Of a DNA stretch of 64,000 nt, positions 3,253 to 41,946 are shown one piece after another (position 1 is the first letter of the stretch; the number at the start of each line of letters is the position of its first letter). This stretch comes from Haloterrigena alkaliphila (GTDB lineage Archaea > Halobacteriota > Halobacteria > Halobacteriales > Natrialbaceae), in assembly GCF_017352155.2 (NCBI RefSeq), contig NZ_CP071462.1, forward strand, positions 2,604,001-2,668,000, given 5' to 3'. Position numbers and translations under genes: made by a program. A model generated the notes under the pieces. The model did not search any database. It saw only the letters and a list, made by a program, of their open reading frames with translations, and was not told the origin of the DNA.

Positions 3253-3277
3253 TGGGTATGCGGGGATTCGAACCCCG
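3253..3277 (-). other. tRNA 3'-end-like remnant (T-arm plus half acceptor)
   Basis: On the minus strand a perfect T-arm (stem CGGGG/CCCCG at 3261-3277 around the 7-nt loop TTCGAAT) is followed by seven bases CATACCC and a discriminator-like A. No matching 5' acceptor half, D-arm or anticodon arm is found upstream on that strand, so this is not a complete tRNA. tRNA 3' ends are common integration sites, and this one lies between toxin-antitoxin-type genes and an IS copy. Confidence 0.35.
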
Positions 3278-3475
3278 GGCCTGCTGACCTGCTGTCCGAG
3301 CACTCCCCTCTCGCGAACGACGCGCCGCGCGGACTCGCGCCCCTCGCCCGACCCACGTCGACGGTTCAGCGGTTCTTCCGGACTGAACTACACACCCCTG
3401 ACTCGAGTGACGACCACGACGCCAGGCAAAAAGTCATCGGACGGCAAACCGCGACAACCCGAGAGCGACCCTTAC

Positions 3476-4951
3476 GGAAATCGAGGAAAAAGCCCCGCCC
3501 TTTAGGGCGGGGATGAATCCGACACTACCCTTCACAGACCGACGTTCGATGGCACGACTGGATATTTCACGCTACGTAATCCACATATTCAAGTAACCAG
3601 TTCTACATAGGTTACGTATGGCGAAACAGGTCGTCACGCGCACATACACTGCTTCAATCAGGAACCAGCAACAGGTGCAAGACGACCTCGATTCGCTCGG
3701 GTTCGCCGCCAGTAAACTCTGGAACGTCGGACGGTGGACGTGCAGTCGCGTCTGGAATGAAATCGACTACATCCCCGAACACAACGAACTCACCGCCTAC
3801 CTCAAGTCGCACGAACGCTATGATGACCTGCATTCTCAGTCAAGTCAGCGAGTCCTTCAAGAACTCGCTGAGGCGTTCAACGGCTGGTACGGCAAACGGC
3901 AAAACGGAGACACACGAGCGAACCCGCCCGGCTACCGCAAACACAACGACGAACACCCACGAAGCACGGTCACCTTCAAGAACAAAGGCTTCAAACTCGA
4001 CACTCAGTACAACCGAGTCCGACTCTCAAAGGGGTCGAATCTCAAGGAGTATTGGTCGGACTTCATCCTCTGCGAATACCAGGCTCGTCCTGATGTAGAT
4101 CTCTCCGCTGTGGAGAGCGTCCAACAGGTTCGGGCGGTCTGGACGGGCGATGAGTGGGAACTGCACTTTGTGTGCAAAGTCGAGATCGAAACATCCGACT
4201 TGCCCGGTGAGAAGACGTGGGTGTTGACCTCGGGATCAACAACTTCGCCGCCCTCGCATACGAAGACGGTCACGCCGAGTTGTATCCACTCAACTGCCTG
4301 AAGCAGGACGACTACTACTTCAGCAAGCGTCTCGCCTGCTGTGACAACTCGGACTCTGAGCAAGCCACGCGGTTGAACCAGAAGAAGTCGGCTCGCCGCA
4401 CCCACTACTTCCATATACTCTCGAAACACATCGTTCAGCGATGTGTTGACGAGGACGTTGGAACGATCGTGGTGGGTGACCTCTCCGGTATCTGCGAAGA
4501 CGAGGAGAACGGTGAGTCAAAGAACTGGGGCAAGCACGGCAACCTCGACTTGCACTCGTGGGCGTTCGATCGTTTCACCAACCTGCTCAAATACAAAGCC
4601 GAGATGGAAGGCATCACGGTTGAGCAGGTCTCGGAGCGTGACACCTCGAAGTCGTGTTCGTGTTGTGGTCGGAAGCGTAAGGCGAACCGTGTTGAACGCG
4701 GACTGTACGTGTGTGATGACTGCGAGACGGTGGCGAACGCGGATGTGAACGGTGCTGAGAACATTCGACAGAAAGTATCTCCGAGTCCCGCCACGAATGG
4801 CGGTGATAGGAGTAACGGCTGGTTGGCACAGCCATCGACATTCCTGTTAGACAAGGAGATTGGTGCGTTCGCACCTCAAGAACAGGTCACGTCGTAAACC
4901 ACAATCTCCCAACGCGGGAATCCTCGCCCTTCAGGGCTGGGAGGATGTCAA
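3476..4951 (+). mobile_element. IS200/IS605-group tnpB-only element, copy A (frameshifted)
   Basis: The ends come from comparison with copy B at 31657-33134. Similarity begins directly after TTAC (3472-3475) and ends at TCAA (4948-4951), which are the left and right cleavage motifs known for IS608. The left end has a hairpin, CCCCGCCC-ttta-GGGCGGGG at 3493-3512; the right end has another around 4922-4947. No TnpA (Y1 transposase) gene is present, so mobility would need TnpA in trans. The element is inserted antisense at the stop codon of the glycosyltransferase gene. Confidence 0.88.
3618..4897 (+). pseudogene. tnpB: tnpB of copy A, broken by a 1-bp deletion
   Basis: Two overlapping frames (3618-4301 and 4217-4897) together match the intact 426-aa TnpB of copy B end to end. 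Where copy B reads GAAGACGGTGGGTG, copy A reads GAAGACGTGGGTG near 4212-4222. One missing G shifts the frame just before the RuvC-I motif (VDLGINNF). The first frame therefore stops at codon 228 and has no nuclease domain. The second half still encodes RuvC-I, the zinc finger (CSCCG...CDDC) and the final NADVNGAENI motif. A sequencing error or programmed frameshifting are alternatives, but no slippery heptamer is evident. Confidence 0.88.
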
Positions 4952-4967
4952 CGCTCGACCGAGCTCA
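4790..4967 (+). ncRNA. Predicted reRNA (omega-RNA) of copy A with guide
   Basis: By analogy with IS200/IS605 TnpB systems, the guide RNA spans the 3' end of tnpB and the right-end hairpin and runs into the flank. Here the scaffold would end at TCAA (4948-4951) and the guide would be roughly 4952-4967. That guide matches the last codons of the glycosyltransferase gene. The 5' boundary is an estimate. The right end is intact although the protein gene is broken, so the RNA could be used by TnpB from copy B. Confidence 0.45.
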
Positions 4968-6180
4968 GGAAGAACGACGAGAACACGGTCTGGAGGCCGA
5001 TGACGATCGCGGTGAAGGCGATCAGCGCCCCCATCGTGAACTCGAGCGAGCCGAACCCGCTCGAGATCCACTGGTAGACCAGTCCCGCGGCGTACAGCCC
5101 CCCGGCAGCAAAGACCAGGAGGCCGGCCGTCGCGCCGTGCTCGAGCGATAGCGATCCGATCACCCGTTCCGTGATCGGGTCTTCGGGCTTCTGGATCGGA
5201 TCGCTCGTCACCGCGGCGAACACCCCGAGGCTCGCAACCTGATAGCCGACGATGGTCAACAAACTCCCGGCGATCATCGAGTGCAGTCCTAGCGACACGC
5301 CGTTGATCGACGCCTCGGAGTATGCGACTCCCATCACGGCCATCCCGAGCAGGCTCATCAGCATTCCGGGTACCGAAAACAGGAATCCGGGCGCGTTGAC
5401 GAGCATGAAACGGACGTGTCGCCAGCCGTCGCGGAAGCTCTCGAGGGTCTCCTCGCCCTCGCGCTCGTGGTAGATGATCGGCGTCTCCTCGATCACGAGG
5501 TCCTTCGCGCCGGCTTCCATGATCATCTCGCTGGCGAACTCCATCCCGGTCGTCTCGAGCTCCATCTCGTCGAGTGCCTGCCGGCGGAACACGCGAAAGC
5601 CGCTGTGGGCGTCGCTCACGCCGGCCCGGTAGAACGCGTTCAGAAACTTCGTCAGCAGCGGGTTGCCGACGTACTGGTGGAGCGTCGGCATCGCGCCGGG
5701 TCTGATCTCCCCCTCGAGGCGACTCCCCATCACCATGTCCGCGCCGGTCTCCTCGAGGTGACTGAGCAGCCGCGGGATGTCCTTGAAGTCGTAGGTCGTG
5801 TCGGCGTCGCCCATCGCGATGTAGTCGCCGCGGGCCCGTTCGAACGCGTACCGGTAGGCGTAGCCGTAGCCGGGCTGATCCGGTTCGACGACGATGGCCC
5901 CCAGCTCCCGCGCGATCTCGGGCGTTCGATCGGTCGAACTGTCGCTGATGATGATCTCGGTCGGCAGTTGCAGCTCCTCGACCGCCGATTTGATCCAGTT
6001 GATACAGGTTTCGATCCCCTCCTCCTCGTTCAGCGTCGGCATCACGACGGACAACGTCGGCTCGACGTCGCTCCCTCGGTCCACCAGGAGGTCGTCCGCA
6101 GACCGACGCTCGAGGCCCCGGTCCGCCTCGAGAGGGCGATCAGTCGAGGACGACTGGTTAGATTGTGATTTCGAAGACAT
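4948..6180 (-). CDS. Family 2 glycosyltransferase with C-terminal membrane domain
   Basis: A 410-aa protein. After a Ser-rich N-terminus, a GT-A domain (residues 42-270) starts LSVVMPTLNEEEGIETC and holds GDADTTYD as the DxD-type metal/sugar-nucleotide site near residue 133. Four hydrophobic segments follow (about 275-405). This is the plan of dolichyl-phosphate sugar synthases and of haloarchaeal N-glycosylation GT2s. It probably loads a sugar onto a polyprenyl phosphate at the inner face of the membrane. Its stop codon TGA is contributed by the end of IS copy A; the reconstructed original stop was TAA after a synonymous Arg codon. Confidence 0.88.
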   Translation of the reverse strand: MSSKSQSNQSSSTDRPLEADRGLERRSADDLLVDRGSDVEPTLSVVMPTLNEEEGIETCINWIKSAVEELQLPTEIIISDSSTDRTPEIARELGAIVVEPDQPGYGYAYRYAFERARGDYIAMGDADTTYDFKDIPRLLSHLEETGADMVMGSRLEGEIRPGAMPTLHQYVGNPLLTKFLNAFYRAGVSDAHSGFRVFRRQALDEMELETTGMEFASEMIMEAGAKDLVIEETPIIYHEREGEETLESFRDGWRHVRFMLVNAPGFLFSVPGMLMSLLGMAVMGVAYSEASINGVSLGLHSMIAGSLLTIVGYQVASLGVFAAVTSDPIQKPEDPITERVIGSLSLEHGATAGLLVFAAGGLYAAGLVYQWISSGFGSLEFTMGALIAFTAIVIGLQTVFSSFFLSSVER

Positions 6181-31563: not shown

Positions 31564-31656
31564 GGGGCACGCAGTCAGAAAATCAAACGCGTCGCGGGTA
31601 CCGGCCGATCGACCGCCTCGAGGCCGTATAGAAATCCTCGATCGAAACGGCGTTAC

Positions 31657-33134
31657 GGCAATCCAAGGAGAAAGCCTCGTGCTTTAGCGCGGGGATGAAT
31701 CCGACATAACCTTTCGCAGTCCACCGTCCGATGGCACAGCAGGATATTCCTCGCTTCGCAATCCCTACCTTCAAGTAGCTTTCTCTACATTAGTTACGTA
31801 TGGCGAAACGGGTCGTCACCCGCACCTACACTGCTTCCATTCGGAACCAGTCACGGGTGTCTGACGATCTCGATTCGCTCGGGTTCGCCGCCTCGAAACT
31901 CTGGAACGTCGGACGGTGGACGTGCAGTCGCATCTGGGATGAAATCGACTACATCCCTGAACACGACGAACTCACCGCGTACCTCAAGTCACACGAACGC
32001 TATGATGACCTGCATTCTCAGTCAAGTCAGCGCGTTCTTCAAGAACTCGCTGAAGCGTTCAACGGCTGGTACGGCAAACGACGTAACGGAGACACGAACG
32101 CAAACCCGCCCGGCTACCGCAAACACGGCGATGAACACCCCCGAAGCACGGTCACGTTCAAGAACAAAGGCTTCAAACTCGACACGAAGTACCAGCGAGT
32201 CCGCCTCTCTAAAGGCTCGAACCTCAAGGAGTACTGGTCGGACTTCATCCTCTGCGAGTACCAGACTCGCCCCGACGTTGATCTCTCCACTGTGGAGAAC
32301 GTCCAACAAGTACGGGGCGTCTGGACTGGTGACGAGTGGGAGCTACACTTCGTTTGCAAAGTCGAAATCGAAGTATCAGAAGCACCCGGTGAGAAGACGG
32401 TGGGTGTTGACCTCGGTATCAACAACTTCGCTGCCCTCGCCTACGAGGACGGTCACAGTGAGTTGTACCCACTCAACTGCTTGAAGCAGGATGACTACTA
32501 CTTCAGCAAGCGCATCGCTCGGTGTGACGACTCTGACTCCGAGCAGGCCACGCGGTTGCACCGGAAGAAGTCGGCTCGCCGAACCCACTACTTCCACACA
32601 CTTTCCAAACACATAGTTCAGCGGTGTGTAGATGAGGGAGTTGGAACCATCGTGGTGGGTGACCTCTCTGGTATCCGCGAAGACGAGGAGAACGACGAGG
32701 CGAAGAACTGGGGCAAGCACGGCAACCTTGACCTGCACTCGTGGGCGTTCGACCGATTCACCGACCTACTCGAATACAAGGTCGAGATGGAAGGCATCAC
32801 GGTCGAACAGGTATCGGAGCGCGATACCTCGAAGTCGTGTTCGTGTTGTGGCCGTACACGAAAAGCAAACCGTGTCGAACGCGGGTTGTATGTGTGCGAT
32901 GAATGCGGGATGGTGGCAAATGCCGATGTGAACGGCGCTGAGAATATTCGACAGAAAGTATCTCCGAGTCTCTCCTGTGACGGGGGAGATAGGAGTAACG
33001 GCTGGTTGGCACAGCCATCGACGTTCCTGTTTGACAAGGAAACTGGTGCGTTCACACCTCAAGAACAGGTCACGTCGTAAACCACAATATCCCAACGCGA
33101 GAATCCTCGCCCTTCAGGGCGGGGAGGATGTCAA
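31657..33134 (+). mobile_element. IS200/IS605-group tnpB-only element, copy B (intact)
   Basis: It starts directly after TTAC (31653-31656) and ends with TCAA (33131-33134); 1478 bp. It aligns with copy A from the first base after TTAC, and the outer flanks are unrelated, so the ends are well defined. A left-end hairpin around CCTCGTGC-ttta-GCGCGGGG and a right-end hairpin at 33103-33129 are present. No tnpA. The last TCA doubles as the reverse complement of the neighbouring gene's TGA stop. Confidence 0.9.
31800..33080 (+). CDS. tnpB: TnpB RNA-guided nuclease (OrfB, IS1341 type)
   Basis: A 426-aa TnpB. Domain order: N-terminal wedge/REC region (1-195), RuvC-I with VGVDLGINNFAAL (Asp near residue 203), an arginine-rich bridge area, RuvC-II as TIVVGDLSGI, a four-Cys zinc finger (CSCCGRTRKANRVERGLYVC, then DEC) and RuvC-III with ANADVNGAENI (Asp). 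In most TnpBs the second acidic residue is the E of an E-D-L motif; here that position reads G-D-L. TnpB cuts DNA next to a TAM with a reRNA guide. The start matches copy A, six bases after GTTACG. Confidence 0.92.
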   Translation: MAKRVVTRTYTASIRNQSRVSDDLDSLGFAASKLWNVGRWTCSRIWDEIDYIPEHDELTAYLKSHERYDDLHSQSSQRVLQELAEAFNGWYGKRRNGDTNANPPGYRKHGDEHPRSTVTFKNKGFKLDTKYQRVRLSKGSNLKEYWSDFILCEYQTRPDVDLSTVENVQQVRGVWTGDEWELHFVCKVEIEVSEAPGEKTVGVDLGINNFAALAYEDGHSELYPLNCLKQDDYYFSKRIARCDDSDSEQATRLHRKKSARRTHYFHTLSKHIVQRCVDEGVGTIVVGDLSGIREDEENDEAKNWGKHGNLDLHSWAFDRFTDLLEYKVEMEGITVEQVSERDTSKSCSCCGRTRKANRVERGLYVCDECGMVANADVNGAENIRQKVSPSLSCDGGDRSNGWLAQPSTFLFDKETGAFTPQEQVTS

Positions 33135-33150
33135 CCGAGGATGCCGTCGG
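32960..33150 (+). ncRNA. Predicted reRNA (omega-RNA) of copy B with guide
   Basis: Scaffold expected from the 3' part of tnpB through the right-end hairpin (33103-33129) to TCAA at 33131-33134; guide about 33135-33150. The guide corresponds to the final codons of the lipoprotein gene at 33131-33883. Boundaries are by analogy with characterised TnpB systems; only the 3' side is set by the IS end. Confidence 0.48.
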
Positions 33151-33883
33151 TACTTTCGTTGTCACCGCTGCCGTCGTTGGTTTCGTTCGAGCTGCTGTTC
33201 CCACCGTCCTCGGAACCGCCGGCCGAGTCGTCCGAATCGACGTCGGTGGTCACCGATTCGGTGAGCGTCGCGATGTTCGGCTGCTCCTGGCTCTGCAGGT
33301 CCCGGGGATAGACGCCGATGGTGACGAGCAGGTCCTCGTCGGCCTCGACGGCCTCGGTGATGTGGATGTCGACCTCGAGTTCCTGCCCGTCGAACGTCGC
33401 GTCGGCGGTGAACCGCGACTGGGTCGTCGACTCGCCGAGGATCGTGACGTCGCTGTCTTCCTCGTGGGAGATGTCGTTGATCCCGTCGTAGTTGCTCCTG
33501 ACGAGGTCGATGAGTTCCTGCGTCGACATCTCTCCGACGGGGTTGAGTTCCCGTCCGAAGATGCTGACCTGCGGGGTCGTCAACACGTTGTAGATGGCAG
33601 CGCGCCGCTCGCCGAGCCCCATGATCCCGACCCGTTTTTCGTGTTTGGTCATGTGGTTGCGGACCGTGACGGTCTCGTTCGTGGGGCCGACGTCGCGCTC
33701 GATGGGGAGCGCTTCGATCTCGGTCTGTTCGTAGCCGGTCTCCTCGCGGGCGGCGGCTTCGACGCCCGCGGGCGAGGACTCGTGTTCCGCCATTCCGATC
33801 AATCCCAGACAGCCCGACAGACTCGCGAGGCCGGCGGCCCCGAGGCACGCGATGACGCTTCGTCGATTCAGTTGTCGATCCAT
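33131..33883 (-). CDS. Lipoprotein with Tat-like signal (DUF6517-like)
   Basis: A 250-aa protein. The N-terminus NRRSVIACLGAAGLASLSGC has a twin arginine, hydrophobic core and lipobox LSGC (Cys near residue 25), so it is probably a Tat-exported, lipid-anchored protein. The mature domain (about 40-205) contains YNVLTTPQVSIFGRELNPVG, a pattern seen in the haloarchaeal DUF6517 family. The last 45 residues are a low-complexity S/D/G/N linker. Its stop codon (GGT TGA) is built from the end of IS copy B; the empty site would have read GGG TAA. Confidence 0.83.
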   Translation of the reverse strand: MDRQLNRRSVIACLGAAGLASLSGCLGLIGMAEHESSPAGVEAAAREETGYEQTEIEALPIERDVGPTNETVTVRNHMTKHEKRVGIMGLGERRAAIYNVLTTPQVSIFGRELNPVGEMSTQELIDLVRSNYDGINDISHEEDSDVTILGESTTQSRFTADATFDGQELEVDIHITEAVEADEDLLVTIGVYPRDLQSQEQPNIATLTESVTTDVDSDDSAGGSEDGGNSSSNETNDGSGDNESTDGILG

Positions 33884-37363: not shown

Positions 37364-38671
37364 ATGTCCGTCTTCGACGACCGAGACATGGCTGATCAGG
37401 CAGGGGATCCGCTTTTCCAATCTCACGATCCGATCTTCGATCGGAAGGAACTCCTCCACGTCGGGCACGTCCCCGACGAGGAACGGATCGTCGGCCGGGA
37501 CGACGAGATCGAATCCGTCGCCGCCGAAGTCGGCGCGATCACGCGCGGTGACCCGCCGAACAACGTGATGATCTACGGGAAGACCGGCACCGGAAAGAGT
37601 CTCATCTCCCGACACGTCGCGACTCGAGCGCGGAACGCGTCCCGGGGGAACGACGTCGACTGCGGCGTCCTCTACGTCGACTGTTCGGAGGCGAACACGG
37701 AGACGCGGGCGACGCGCCAGTTGGCGCTCAGTCTCAAGGAGGGGACCGGGTACGAGGGGAACATTCCGGTCCGGGGTGTCGGCACGATGGAGTACTACCA
37801 GCACATCTGGGACGTGCTCGAGGCGTTCTTCGACGCGGTCATCGTTATCCTGGACGAGATCGACAAACTGGACAATAGCAACATCCTGATGCAACTCTCG
37901 CGGGCCCGCGAGGCCCAGAAGACGGACGCCTACATCGGTGTCATCGGGATCAGTAACAAGGTCAAGTACCGGGAAACGCTCGACGAGCGCATCGACAGCA
38001 GCTTCGGTCACCGCGAACTGTTCTTCCACCCCTACGACGCCTCACAGCTCCGGGAGATCATGCGAAACCGCGAGGACGCCTTTCAGTCCGGCGTGCTCGA
38101 GGACGGGACGATCGAGCTCTGTGCCGCGCTCGCGGCCAAGAAACACGGCGACGCGCGGAAGGCCATCGAGATTCTGAAAGAGGCCGGCGAACTCGCCCGT
38201 CGGACCGGGAGCGAGACGGTCTCGGAGGACCACATCAAGCAGGCCCAGGAGGTCGCCGAGATCAATCGAATCGAGGAACTGACCAGCGGTGCCACGGTCC
38301 ACGCGAAACTCGCCCTCTACGCACTGGCGAGTCACATCGTCACCGGCGAGCGAGAGACGTACAAGACCCGCGAGATCTACGAGCGCTACGGCAGCGTCTG
38401 CGATCTGATCGCGACCGATCCGATCACCGAGAACGGCCTCTACCGCCAGCTCAAGGAACAGGCCTTCCTCGGCGTCATCGAGTCCGAGAAGACCGGCGGC
38501 GGCCGCTCGCAGGGGAGCTACCTCCTCCACCGGCTCGTTACCGATCCGAAACACATCGTCAAAGCCGTGCGGCGGGATTCGTCGCTCGAGGATCTTCCGA
38601 CGTACGACGACCTCGCTGGCACCGAGCGGGCGACGACGGATCGGGACGCCGATCTCTCGTCGTTCTCCTGA
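37364..38671 (+). CDS. cdc6: Orc1/Cdc6-family replication initiator
   Basis: A 435-aa AAA+ protein. Walker A YGKTGTGKS (residues 71-79), Walker B VIVILDEID (159-167), sensor-1 region IGVIGISNKVKYRE, and a C-terminal winged helix (about 330-415) that binds ORB DNA. It recognises origins and loads the MCM helicase. The ATG at 37364 is followed by a second in-frame ATG at 37388 that could be the start. Boxes on both sides of the gene suggest self-regulation and origin use. Haloarchaea carry many paralogues; which one this is cannot be told. Confidence 0.95.
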   Translation: MSVFDDRDMADQAGDPLFQSHDPIFDRKELLHVGHVPDEERIVGRDDEIESVAAEVGAITRGDPPNNVMIYGKTGTGKSLISRHVATRARNASRGNDVDCGVLYVDCSEANTETRATRQLALSLKEGTGYEGNIPVRGVGTMEYYQHIWDVLEAFFDAVIVILDEIDKLDNSNILMQLSRAREAQKTDAYIGVIGISNKVKYRETLDERIDSSFGHRELFFHPYDASQLREIMRNREDAFQSGVLEDGTIELCAALAAKKHGDARKAIEILKEAGELARRTGSETVSEDHIKQAQEVAEINRIEELTSGATVHAKLALYALASHIVTGERETYKTREIYERYGSVCDLIATDPITENGLYRQLKEQAFLGVIESEKTGGGRSQGSYLLHRLVTDPKHIVKAVRRDSSLEDLPTYDDLAGTERATTDRDADLSSFS

Positions 38672-38855
38672 TCGAATCAAATCTCTCTCGTCGAATCGGA
38701 TCTTTCTCGTCGAATCAAATCTCTCTCGTCGAATCGGATCTTTCTCGTCGAATCAAATCTCTCTCGTCGAATCGGATCTTTCTCGTCGAATCAAATCTCT
38801 CTCGTCGAATCGGATCTTTCTCGTCGAATCAAATCTCTTCCGTCGAATCGATTCT
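38672..38855. repeat. 38-bp tandem repeat (two 19-bp halves), about 5 copies
   Basis: Units begin at 38672, 38710, 38748, 38786 and 38824, exactly 38 bp apart; the last is partial and diverged. Each has two related 19-mers, TCGAATCAAATCTCTCTCG and TCGAATCGGATCTTTCTCG. The first unit begins at the stop codon of cdc6. There are no unique spacers, so this is not a CRISPR. Confidence 0.92.
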
Positions 38856-38885
38856 CTCATCGACGTATCCGTCCGGTCCGTTCGC

Positions 38886-40236: not shown

Positions 40237-40381
40237 GGTAGAATCGGGCGGATCGTGGCGTACTCTTCCCGGAGGCCGGGCAAAACCCTTGGCACTGCAC
40301 TCGTCTACTGACACGTAGCGAGCGGAAGCCCACCCCTTCAGGGGTGAGTGTAAGCGACAGCATGGCTCGGCAATCCACGCG

Positions 40382-40525
40382 CTATTGCTCGTCTGGATGT
40401 TCCACCGCTTCCAACCCCGCTTCGATAATTTCCCGATAGGCTTCTTCGAGGGTCACGTCCTGCTGTTCGGCGTAGTCTTTCACGCGCCCGTTCAACGTGT
40501 GCGAGATGTCGATGTTCGGTCGCAT
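40382..40525 (-). CDS. 47-aa ribbon-helix-helix-like protein, divergent from tnpB
   Basis: A small [23 protein letters not shown] and so on, ending EHPDEQ. A predicted N-terminal strand (RPNIDIS) and two helices ([12 protein letters not shown] and [17 protein letters not shown]) match the size and pattern of RHH/CopG/VapB repressors. It lies inside IS copy C between the left end and tnpB, on the opposite strand. A palindrome (40529-40555) between the two starts could be its operator. Inferred role: repressor of tnpB and of itself. Confidence 0.72.
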
Positions 40526-40528
40526 CGT

Positions 40529-40555
40529 CTATGTCCAAAAGACATTTGGACGTAG
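40529..40555. promoter_or_regulatory. Palindrome between the 47-aa ORF and tnpB
   Basis: Arms CTATGTCCAAA (40529-40539) and TTTGGACGTAG (40545-40555) are inverted with one mismatch around AGACA. The site begins 3 bp upstream of the minus-strand ATG and ends 8 bp before the plus-strand ATG, so bound protein would cover both leaderless starts. Confidence 0.7.
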
Positions 40556-40563
40556 AACTGTAA

Positions 40564-41880
40564 ATGTCTGTTGTCGTGAGGCGAACCAACACGTTCGCGG
40601 TGCGCCCGCTCTCCACGCAGGACGAGCAACTGCTCCGCGACCTGTTGGACGCCTCCGCCAGTCTGTGGAACGAACTTACCTACGAACGTCGCCAAAACTT
40701 CTTCGACGGCGAATCGGTGTGGGACACCGCCGACTACCGCAAGCAGTACGTCGGCGTCCTCGGCTCCGCCACCGCCCAACAAGTCATCCGCAAGAACAGC
40801 GAGGCATGGCGGTCGTTCTTCGCTACTCGAGAAGGTGGTGAGGACACCGCCCCGCCGGGCTACTGGGGCAACGAGGACGAGGGGCGGGAGTTGCGGACGT
40901 ACCTCCGCAACGACCAGTACACCCTCGAAACCGGCGAGCGGAGCCGACTCGAAGTCCCCGTCGGCCAAGACCTGAAAGAGGAGTACGGCCTTGGCTACCA
41001 CGACCGTCTGCGCCTCGAAGTCACTGGCCACCCGAAGTGGGACGGCGAGCAGGGCCGGTTGGAACTGTACTACGACGAGGTAGACGACACGTTCAGAGCC
41101 ATTCAGCCTGTCACCGTACCCGATTCTCGACAGGATTCACCACTGGCTTTGGAAGAAGCCGCGCTGGACGTGGGCGCGAACAACCTCGTCGCTTGTACCA
41201 CTACGACCGGTCAGCAGTACCTCTACGAGGGGCGCGACCTGTTCGCCCGATTCCGCGAAACCACCGGAGAAATTGCCCGGTTGCAGTCGAAACTCCGGGA
41301 GGGCCGGTACAGCAGTCGCCGGATCCGACGCCTGTATCGCAAGCGAACGCGACGCCGCGACCACGCACGGGACGCGCTCGTGCGCGACCTTATCGAGCGA
41401 CTGTACGACGAAGGTGTCGCTACGATGTACGTGGGCGACCTCACGGACGTGCTGTCAGAACACTGGAGTACAGTGGTGAACGAGAAGACGCACCAGTTCT
41501 GGGCGTACCGTTCGTTCATCGACAGGCTCGCTACGACCGCCGAAGAGTACGGTATCAGGATCGAGGTGCGGTCGGAAGCGTACACGACGGCGGAGTGTCC
41601 GGCGTGTGGCGAGCGCGACGATACAGACCGGAACGGCGATGTGTTCCGGTGTTCGTGTGGCTACGAGGGACACGCCGACCTCGACGCTTCGCGGACGTTC
41701 CTCGAACGGCAGGCTGGCACAAATCTGGGAGTGGGGTCGATGGCACGGCCCGTACGCCTCAAGTGGGACGACCACAACTGGTCGGAGTCACCACGCTCTC
41801 CCGAGAGGGCCAGTCCCAACGAGGAGCGCACAAACCGGAGTACCGACGACGGGAAACTTGCCTCCGTAGGTACGGCATAG
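40564..41880 (+). CDS. tnpB: TnpB RNA-guided nuclease, second family
   Basis: A 438-aa TnpB unlike copies A/B. RuvC-I is [12 protein letters not shown] (Asp near residue 203), RuvC-II is [10 protein letters not shown], the zinc finger is [20 protein letters not shown] plus C, and RuvC-III is [13 protein letters not shown] (the usual ADxN Asn is Asp here). The second acidic position again reads GDL instead of EDL. The C-terminal tail of about 60 residues is polar and low-complexity ([14 protein letters not shown]) and overlaps the right-end RNA region. The start lies 8 bp from the palindrome. Confidence 0.9.
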
Positions 41881-41946
41881 CCAACATCTCACCGGAGGAA
41901 TCCCATCCTTTATGGGTGGGAGGATGTCAAGCCCCCTGATTGAAGC
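41800..41946 (+). ncRNA. Predicted reRNA of copy C with guide
   Basis: The scaffold would run from the tnpB tail through the right-end hairpin to TCAA (41927-41930); guide about 41931-41946, from the region just upstream of the aldehyde dehydrogenase gene. Only the 3' boundary is set by the IS end. Confidence 0.42.

Follow-up and report, generated by a model that had tools for sequence, protein, structure and literature searches.

The window, that is, the whole stretch of 64,000 nucleotides analyzed here, was mapped with our own gene caller, which relies on codon usage and was trained with haloarchaeal DNA; it gave a plausible gene map. On its plus strand lies an insertion sequence (here named copy A), a tnpB-only IS605-type element of 1,476 bp (positions 3476 to 4951) that sits between the left flank target and cleavage motif TTAC (CL; 3472 to 3475; antisense GTAA) and the right end and cleavage motif TCAA (CR; 4948 to 4951). 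The first-pass annotation had drawn the element from directly behind TTAC up to TCAA, and both motifs are indeed read at these positions. The left guide tetranucleotide AAAG (GL; 3489 to 3492) stands at the foot of a subterminal hairpin, CCCCGCCC-TTTA-GGGCGGGG (3493 to 3512), and the right guide tetranucleotide GAAT (GR; 4918 to 4921) is followed by the right subterminal hairpin (4922 to 4944). Comparison with a second copy (here named copy B) revealed that the tnpB frame is broken by loss of one G near position 4217, giving a first part (3618 to 4301) and a second part (4217 to 4897) with OrfB_IS605 and Cas12f1-like TNB domains (Pfam). A sot0042 RNA (Rfam RF02656), which is a putative omega-RNA scaffold, spans positions 4773 to 4942 and runs into the right end.

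The host gene of copy A (4948 to 6180, minus strand) encodes a GT2 glycosyltransferase (Pfam Glycos_transf_2) and ends GAG CGT TGA, with the stop codon being the antisense of positions 4948 to 4950 within TCAA. The adjoining 4952 to 4971 (plus strand), the antisense of the last host codons, would be the omega-RNA guide flank if TnpB biology is taken as a precedent. Removal of copy A joins the flanks to GAG CGG TAA, leaving both the arginine and the length of the protein unchanged, as first proposed. To the left, window positions 3254 to 3400 hold a T-arm-like stretch, GGGGATTCGAACCCC, possibly part of a tRNA with an intron; ARAGORN made no call there.

Copy B (31657 to 33134, plus strand) has an intact tnpB gene (31800 to 33080; 426 amino acids), a sot0042 RNA (32956 to 33125), and TTAC at its left (31653 to 31656). 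Its right end, TCAA (33131 to 33134), provides the TGA of a gene for a DUF6517 protein (33131 to 33883, minus strand), which ends CTC GGT TGA and, with the flanks joined, CTC GGG TAA. Thus, the exchange from GGG TAA to GGT TGA occurs at a minus-strand stop, as in copy A. Since a DNA search of this genome found only copies A and B, both of its close copies are located at stop codons.

Copies A and B belong to the tnpB-only IS605 elements and match the IS608 code (TTAC, AAAG, GAAT, TCAA) exactly; both ends of each bear the code tetranucleotides at the feet of the end hairpins. For IS608 (ISHp608) of H. pylori, the sections of PMC5934647 considered here give CL TTAC, CR TCAA, GL AAAG, and GR GAAT, together with subterminal hairpins and a left motif in the flank; the earlier reading of TTAC and TCAA as left and right cleavage motifs agrees with this. 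Unlike IS608, copies A and B are without tnpA. The left hairpin of copy A is more stable than shuffled sequences (z = −2.9), and the other three end hairpins are weaker (z = −1.7 to 0.1 versus shuffles). In alignments, TTAC stands at the left of nearly all full-length relatives, and TCAA forms the right end of 103 of 114 copies in a first sample and of 67 of 67 in a second; the 11 remaining ends are TCAC or TCAT and belong to relatives of only 66 to 70% identity. An automatic search of the copies tallied below detected AAAG in 90 of 114 and GAAT in 96 of 114, with GAAT visible in most of the others.

The TnpB proteins of both copies, that of copy A being frameshifted, match OrfB_IS605 and the zinc-finger domain Cas12f1-like_TNB in Pfam. 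No Y1 HUH transposase TnpA is present in copy A or B, which corresponds to the IS1341 type. Since the whole genome holds just one intact Y1 transposase gene, located elsewhere than the two copies, versus 11 TnpB matches, mobilization of the tnpB-only copies in trans is assumed. Similarly, the haloarchaeal IS1341-type elements and PATEs treated in PMC3119063 are, in the portions available, tnpB-only with near-terminal palindromes and a targeting oligonucleotide outside the element. In each copy, the RF02656 match covers the 3' end of tnpB and reaches the right end of the element (180.8 and 178.3 bits). Rfam lists sot0042 as a haloarchaeal sense-overlapping transcript, and from its position in the element and the part of PMC12558985 on sot RNAs and IS605 omega-RNAs, we infer that it serves as omega-RNA. 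The sot RNAs in that part are known as transcripts; in copies A and B, the flank that follows is the 3' coding end of a gene. RNA-guided cleavage of TTAC plus flank is the predicted function of TnpB with this omega-RNA.

In reverse complement, TTAC reads GTAA and TCAA reads TTGA, each with a stop codon at positions 2 to 4. Insertion therefore always converts the end of an antisense gene from NNG TAA, if it is in this register, to NNT TGA. Conversely, where TTAC lies at the left and the junction TGA is in the frame of an antisense gene, the empty gene stopped there too. A Y1 transposase, acting in trans for tnpB-only copies, would insert the element 3' of TTAC, with TCAA as the element end. As TTAC is read as G-TAA and TCAA as T-TGA in antisense, with stops in the same register, insertion at an NNG TAA antisense stop turns TAA into TGA, keeps the gene length, and changes the last codon at most from NNG to NNT. 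This stop-exchange rule is derivable from the motif sequence alone, and the exchange step is shown at the level of sequence and of orthologs.

The collections contain one genome per species, and orthologs were used in place of empty alleles. For the GT2 host, 9 of 14 orthologs stop at exactly the same residue, including one of 74% identity with CGG TAA (L212) and one in a congener, 89% identical, with CGG TAG (L210). An HMG-CoA synthase gene is occupied at another locus (L185; GAT TGA); all 29 other orthologs stop at the same residue, eight of them with GTAA, and the nearest one (L269; 92.6% identity) ends GAG TAA. The serine hydroxymethyltransferase (SHMT) host (L008) shares its end residue with 21 of 29 other orthologs, the rest ending at most two residues away. 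Orthologs of the DUF6517 host have a variable C-terminal tail, two of them (L225 and L228) stopping at the same residue. Orthologs of the four hosts thus mostly share the end residue, and relatives carry the empty GTAA site. The search for empty sites suggested by the first-pass annotation, with orthologs standing in, therefore gave the anticipated result, as NNG TAA is present at the shared residue in the GT2 ortholog L212 and the HMG-CoA synthase ortholog L269. Further hosts include topoisomerase I, NreA, RqcH, Hef, and prephenate dehydratase. The exchange rule explains why elements can lie beside housekeeping genes such as those for HMG-CoA synthase, SHMT, and topoisomerase I.

To place the two copies in a wider frame, 114 two-ended haloarchaeal copies, retrieved through their similarity to copy A or B and selected for TTAC, were tallied. 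Empty sites were rebuilt by joining the flanks, and the same caller classified them and all background TTAC sites, so that gene annotation in the tally is computational. The copies were deduplicated by right flank, with some pairs possibly still related, and the best few matches per genome were scored, which may bias toward intact copies. Antisense NNG-TAA stops accounted for 41 of the 114 insertions (36%), with 54 copies intergenic and 19 inside genes. The background of 1,243 TTAC sites comprised 56 antisense stops (4.5%), 540 intergenic sites, and 647 sites inside genes, which corresponds to an odds ratio of 11.9 (p = 6e-22) against all TTAC sites and of 7.3 (p = 1.7e-14) against intergenic TTAC only. 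Relative to the supply of target sites, antisense stops are thus occupied at about eight times the expected frequency. The three samples behind these numbers were taken successively and not blind: 19 of 44 copies were at antisense stops in same-family genomes, 18 of 53 in a second sample mainly from other families of the order, and 4 of 17 in a third with further loci from named genomes. The tally relative to stop codons that had been proposed at the outset thus yields a strong and replicated excess.

If TTAC were scarce within GC-rich genes and frequent at stop codons, the excess might simply be target supply, and almost half of the TTAC sites do lie outside gene interiors. This explanation has practically no chance of being correct, as antisense stops make up only 4.5% of TTAC sites compared with 36% of insertions. 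The same holds locally: of 606 TTAC sites that flank the first 97 copies and served as a control, 22 were antisense stops (3.6%; odds ratio 16). Genome-wide and local background counts together rule out TTAC supply alone. Insertions inside genes were scarce (19 of 114 copies versus 647 of 1,243 TTAC sites). The excess is confined to the stop itself (offset 0); in sample 1, one other insertion lay 1 to 10 nucleotides past an antisense stop and none lay 11 to 60 nucleotides past one.

The last codon was fourfold degenerate in 24 of the 41 stop insertions. In the other 17 the last residue was altered, from Glu to Asp in 11, from Gln to His in 4, and from Met to Ile in 2. Since 27 of the 56 background antisense stops also have fourfold degenerate last codons, synonymous codons are not clearly enriched, and selection for an unchanged last residue was rejected, there being no clear sign of it. 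The earlier claim that insertion causes no protein change therefore describes copy A and the commonest case, and fails for the 17 altered residues; the general rule across hosts is "same length" rather than "no change."

The first-pass annotation had also raised neutrality at stop codons as a general strategy of these elements. Of this, the excess at stops is replicated, but the sense of targeting is not upheld: sequence context gives no preference for stops, and only 2 of 15 young copies are at stops. A preference at insertion, by TnpA or through target accessibility (e.g., single-stranded DNA at gene ends), would fit the excess at offset 0, which is above that of convergent intergenic TTAC. 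We nevertheless regard such a preference as improbable. A context matrix derived from non-stop insertions scores stops at 1.23 versus 1.11 for intergenic sites, and the +1 base predicts 0.9, i.e., no excess at stops, so local sequence context was discarded as the cause. Furthermore, copies with close relatives are seldom at stops (2 of 15), and TTAC inside genes is used equally on either strand (13 of 444 and 5 of 203).

The pattern is more suggestive of survival than of aim, and survival after insertion, with old copies accumulating at stops, is probably its cause. Insertions at stops would cost little and be kept, genic ones would be purged, and others would turn over, leaving old copies at stops. 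With a near-identical partner taken as a proxy for a young copy, the fraction at stops was 13% at 95% partner identity or more (2 of 15), 30% at 90 to 95%, and 48% at 85 to 90%; this age trend alone is not significant (p = 0.053 to 0.097), and the most isolated copies break it (1 of 8 at stops). In the 97-copy set, all 18 genic copies had an open tnpB frame, and the 12 broken frames were distributed over stops (8), intergenic sites (4), and genes (0). Since the trends are each near p = 0.05 to 0.1, survival is the best yet unproven cause.

Plain neutrality predicts equally good sites, and the roughly sevenfold favoring of stops over intergenic TTAC runs counter to it. The excess holds against intergenic TTAC more than 100 bp from any start (insertions 37:27 versus sites 56:353) and against convergent spacers, with 6 insertions at 64 sites compared with 37 at 56 stop sites. 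Promoter damage was therefore dismissed as the reason for the few intergenic copies. Neutrality alone may not suffice for stops to beat convergent spacers, and a further factor could contribute: DNA next to conserved genes may last longer, or TnpB may retain the element through its guide.

In the latter case, the right-flank guide would match conserved coding sequence, and TnpB would recut empty alleles, on sister chromosomes in polyploid haloarchaea or in mating partners, and so restore the element; stops would combine a conserved guide with a harmless insertion. Consistent with this are the Rfam sot RNA adjoining the right ends of copies A and B, the surplus of stop insertions compared with harmless intergenic sites, for which neutrality alone does not account, the 20-nucleotide flank at HMG-CoA synthase with two or three mismatches in two congeners, and a reported TnpB gene drive on plasmids (PMC11870625). 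Nonetheless, we consider TnpB-guided retention rather unlikely: copies with broken tnpB occupy stops no less often (8 of 12), hosts are no more codon-adapted than other GTAA genes, and there is no hot spot, the element being present in 1 of 30 orthologs each of HMG-CoA synthase and SHMT. A strong guide effect is disfavored by the broken-tnpB copies at stops and the absence of hot spots. The wider idea that stop codons of conserved genes are safe harbors for RNA-guided transposons, with IS608-type ends silencing the insertion and TnpB guides recutting, so that gene ends are selected as long-term homes, appears to us equally doubtful.

Close host pairs recurred only twice among 50 (L009/L164 and L039/L062), not obviously above chance, so that recurrent hot-spot genes were rejected. 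The first pair are orthologous PINA-like ATPase genes (72% identity) from two families, with the element at the same stop and unrelated downstream DNA, which would fit independent landings or one old shared landing.

Site-specific safe-harbor elements, such as those at tRNA 3' ends or attTn7, insert at the 3' end of a gene and restore or spare it. These hit one site, whereas elements with the IS608 code use many unrelated genes, TTAC being the sole requirement. IStrons are likewise IS605-type, harmless to the host gene, and have a stop codon at the boundary, but they are spliced out as introns, while nothing is removed from copies A and B and the stop is exchanged (PMC4227781). A stop-codon excess is not mentioned for IS608 in the sections of PMC5934647 considered, nor is stop-codon landing in those of PMC3119063, which cover the diversity and decay of IS1341-type elements and PATEs. 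In the literature searched, which included only a minority of subscription papers, no description of IS605 elements landing at stop codons was found; the phenomenon appears to be previously undescribed, and its novelty is provisional. Both end motifs hold stops in one register, and in more than one-third of copies the price to the host is a single C-terminal residue or none. This is relevant to a long-standing question, namely how transposons avoid host harm, and offers a concrete reason for the wide persistence in archaea of tnpB-only elements, few of which look mobile.

A second lineage with a different TnpB and the same code (1,834 to 1,890 bp) showed 5 stop, 6 intergenic, and 0 genic insertions among 11 two-ended copies; one of the five stop cases (L463) encodes TnpA with an HVH motif plus TnpB, as judged by open reading frame inspection. 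Related elements with an ATTC-type right end and no TTAC..AAAG left end had antisense-stop sites in 0 of 9 cases. From these small numbers (5 of 11 versus 0 of 9), the stop pattern tracks the end code. Among the relatives with deviating right ends, the junction TGA serves as the stop of an antisense gene in three of four ending in TCAT (L054, L059, and L072) and in none of seven ending in TCAC.

A different TnpB family ending GTAGTTCAC is present in the same genome at an antisense stop (CGG TGA; L257, 1858 to 1872). This TCAC-ended family had a junction stop in 5 of 28 loci read and was left out of the tally, since its left target is not fixed and truncation is possible. A third TnpB element in the window, copy C (40309 to 41930; TnpB 40600 to 41877), ends with GGATGTCAA at 41922 to 41930, nine bases ahead of where an aldehyde dehydrogenase gene starts. 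In four near copies with the right end found, no antisense stop was seen at the junction. The left flank of copy C is CTAC, whose antisense GTAG also holds a stop; this left boundary is not conserved among relatives. Between genes at 38634 to 38880, the window also contains about 10 tandem copies of a 19-base unit in two alternating versions (TCGAATCAAATCTCTCTCG and TCGAATCGGATCTTTCTCG).
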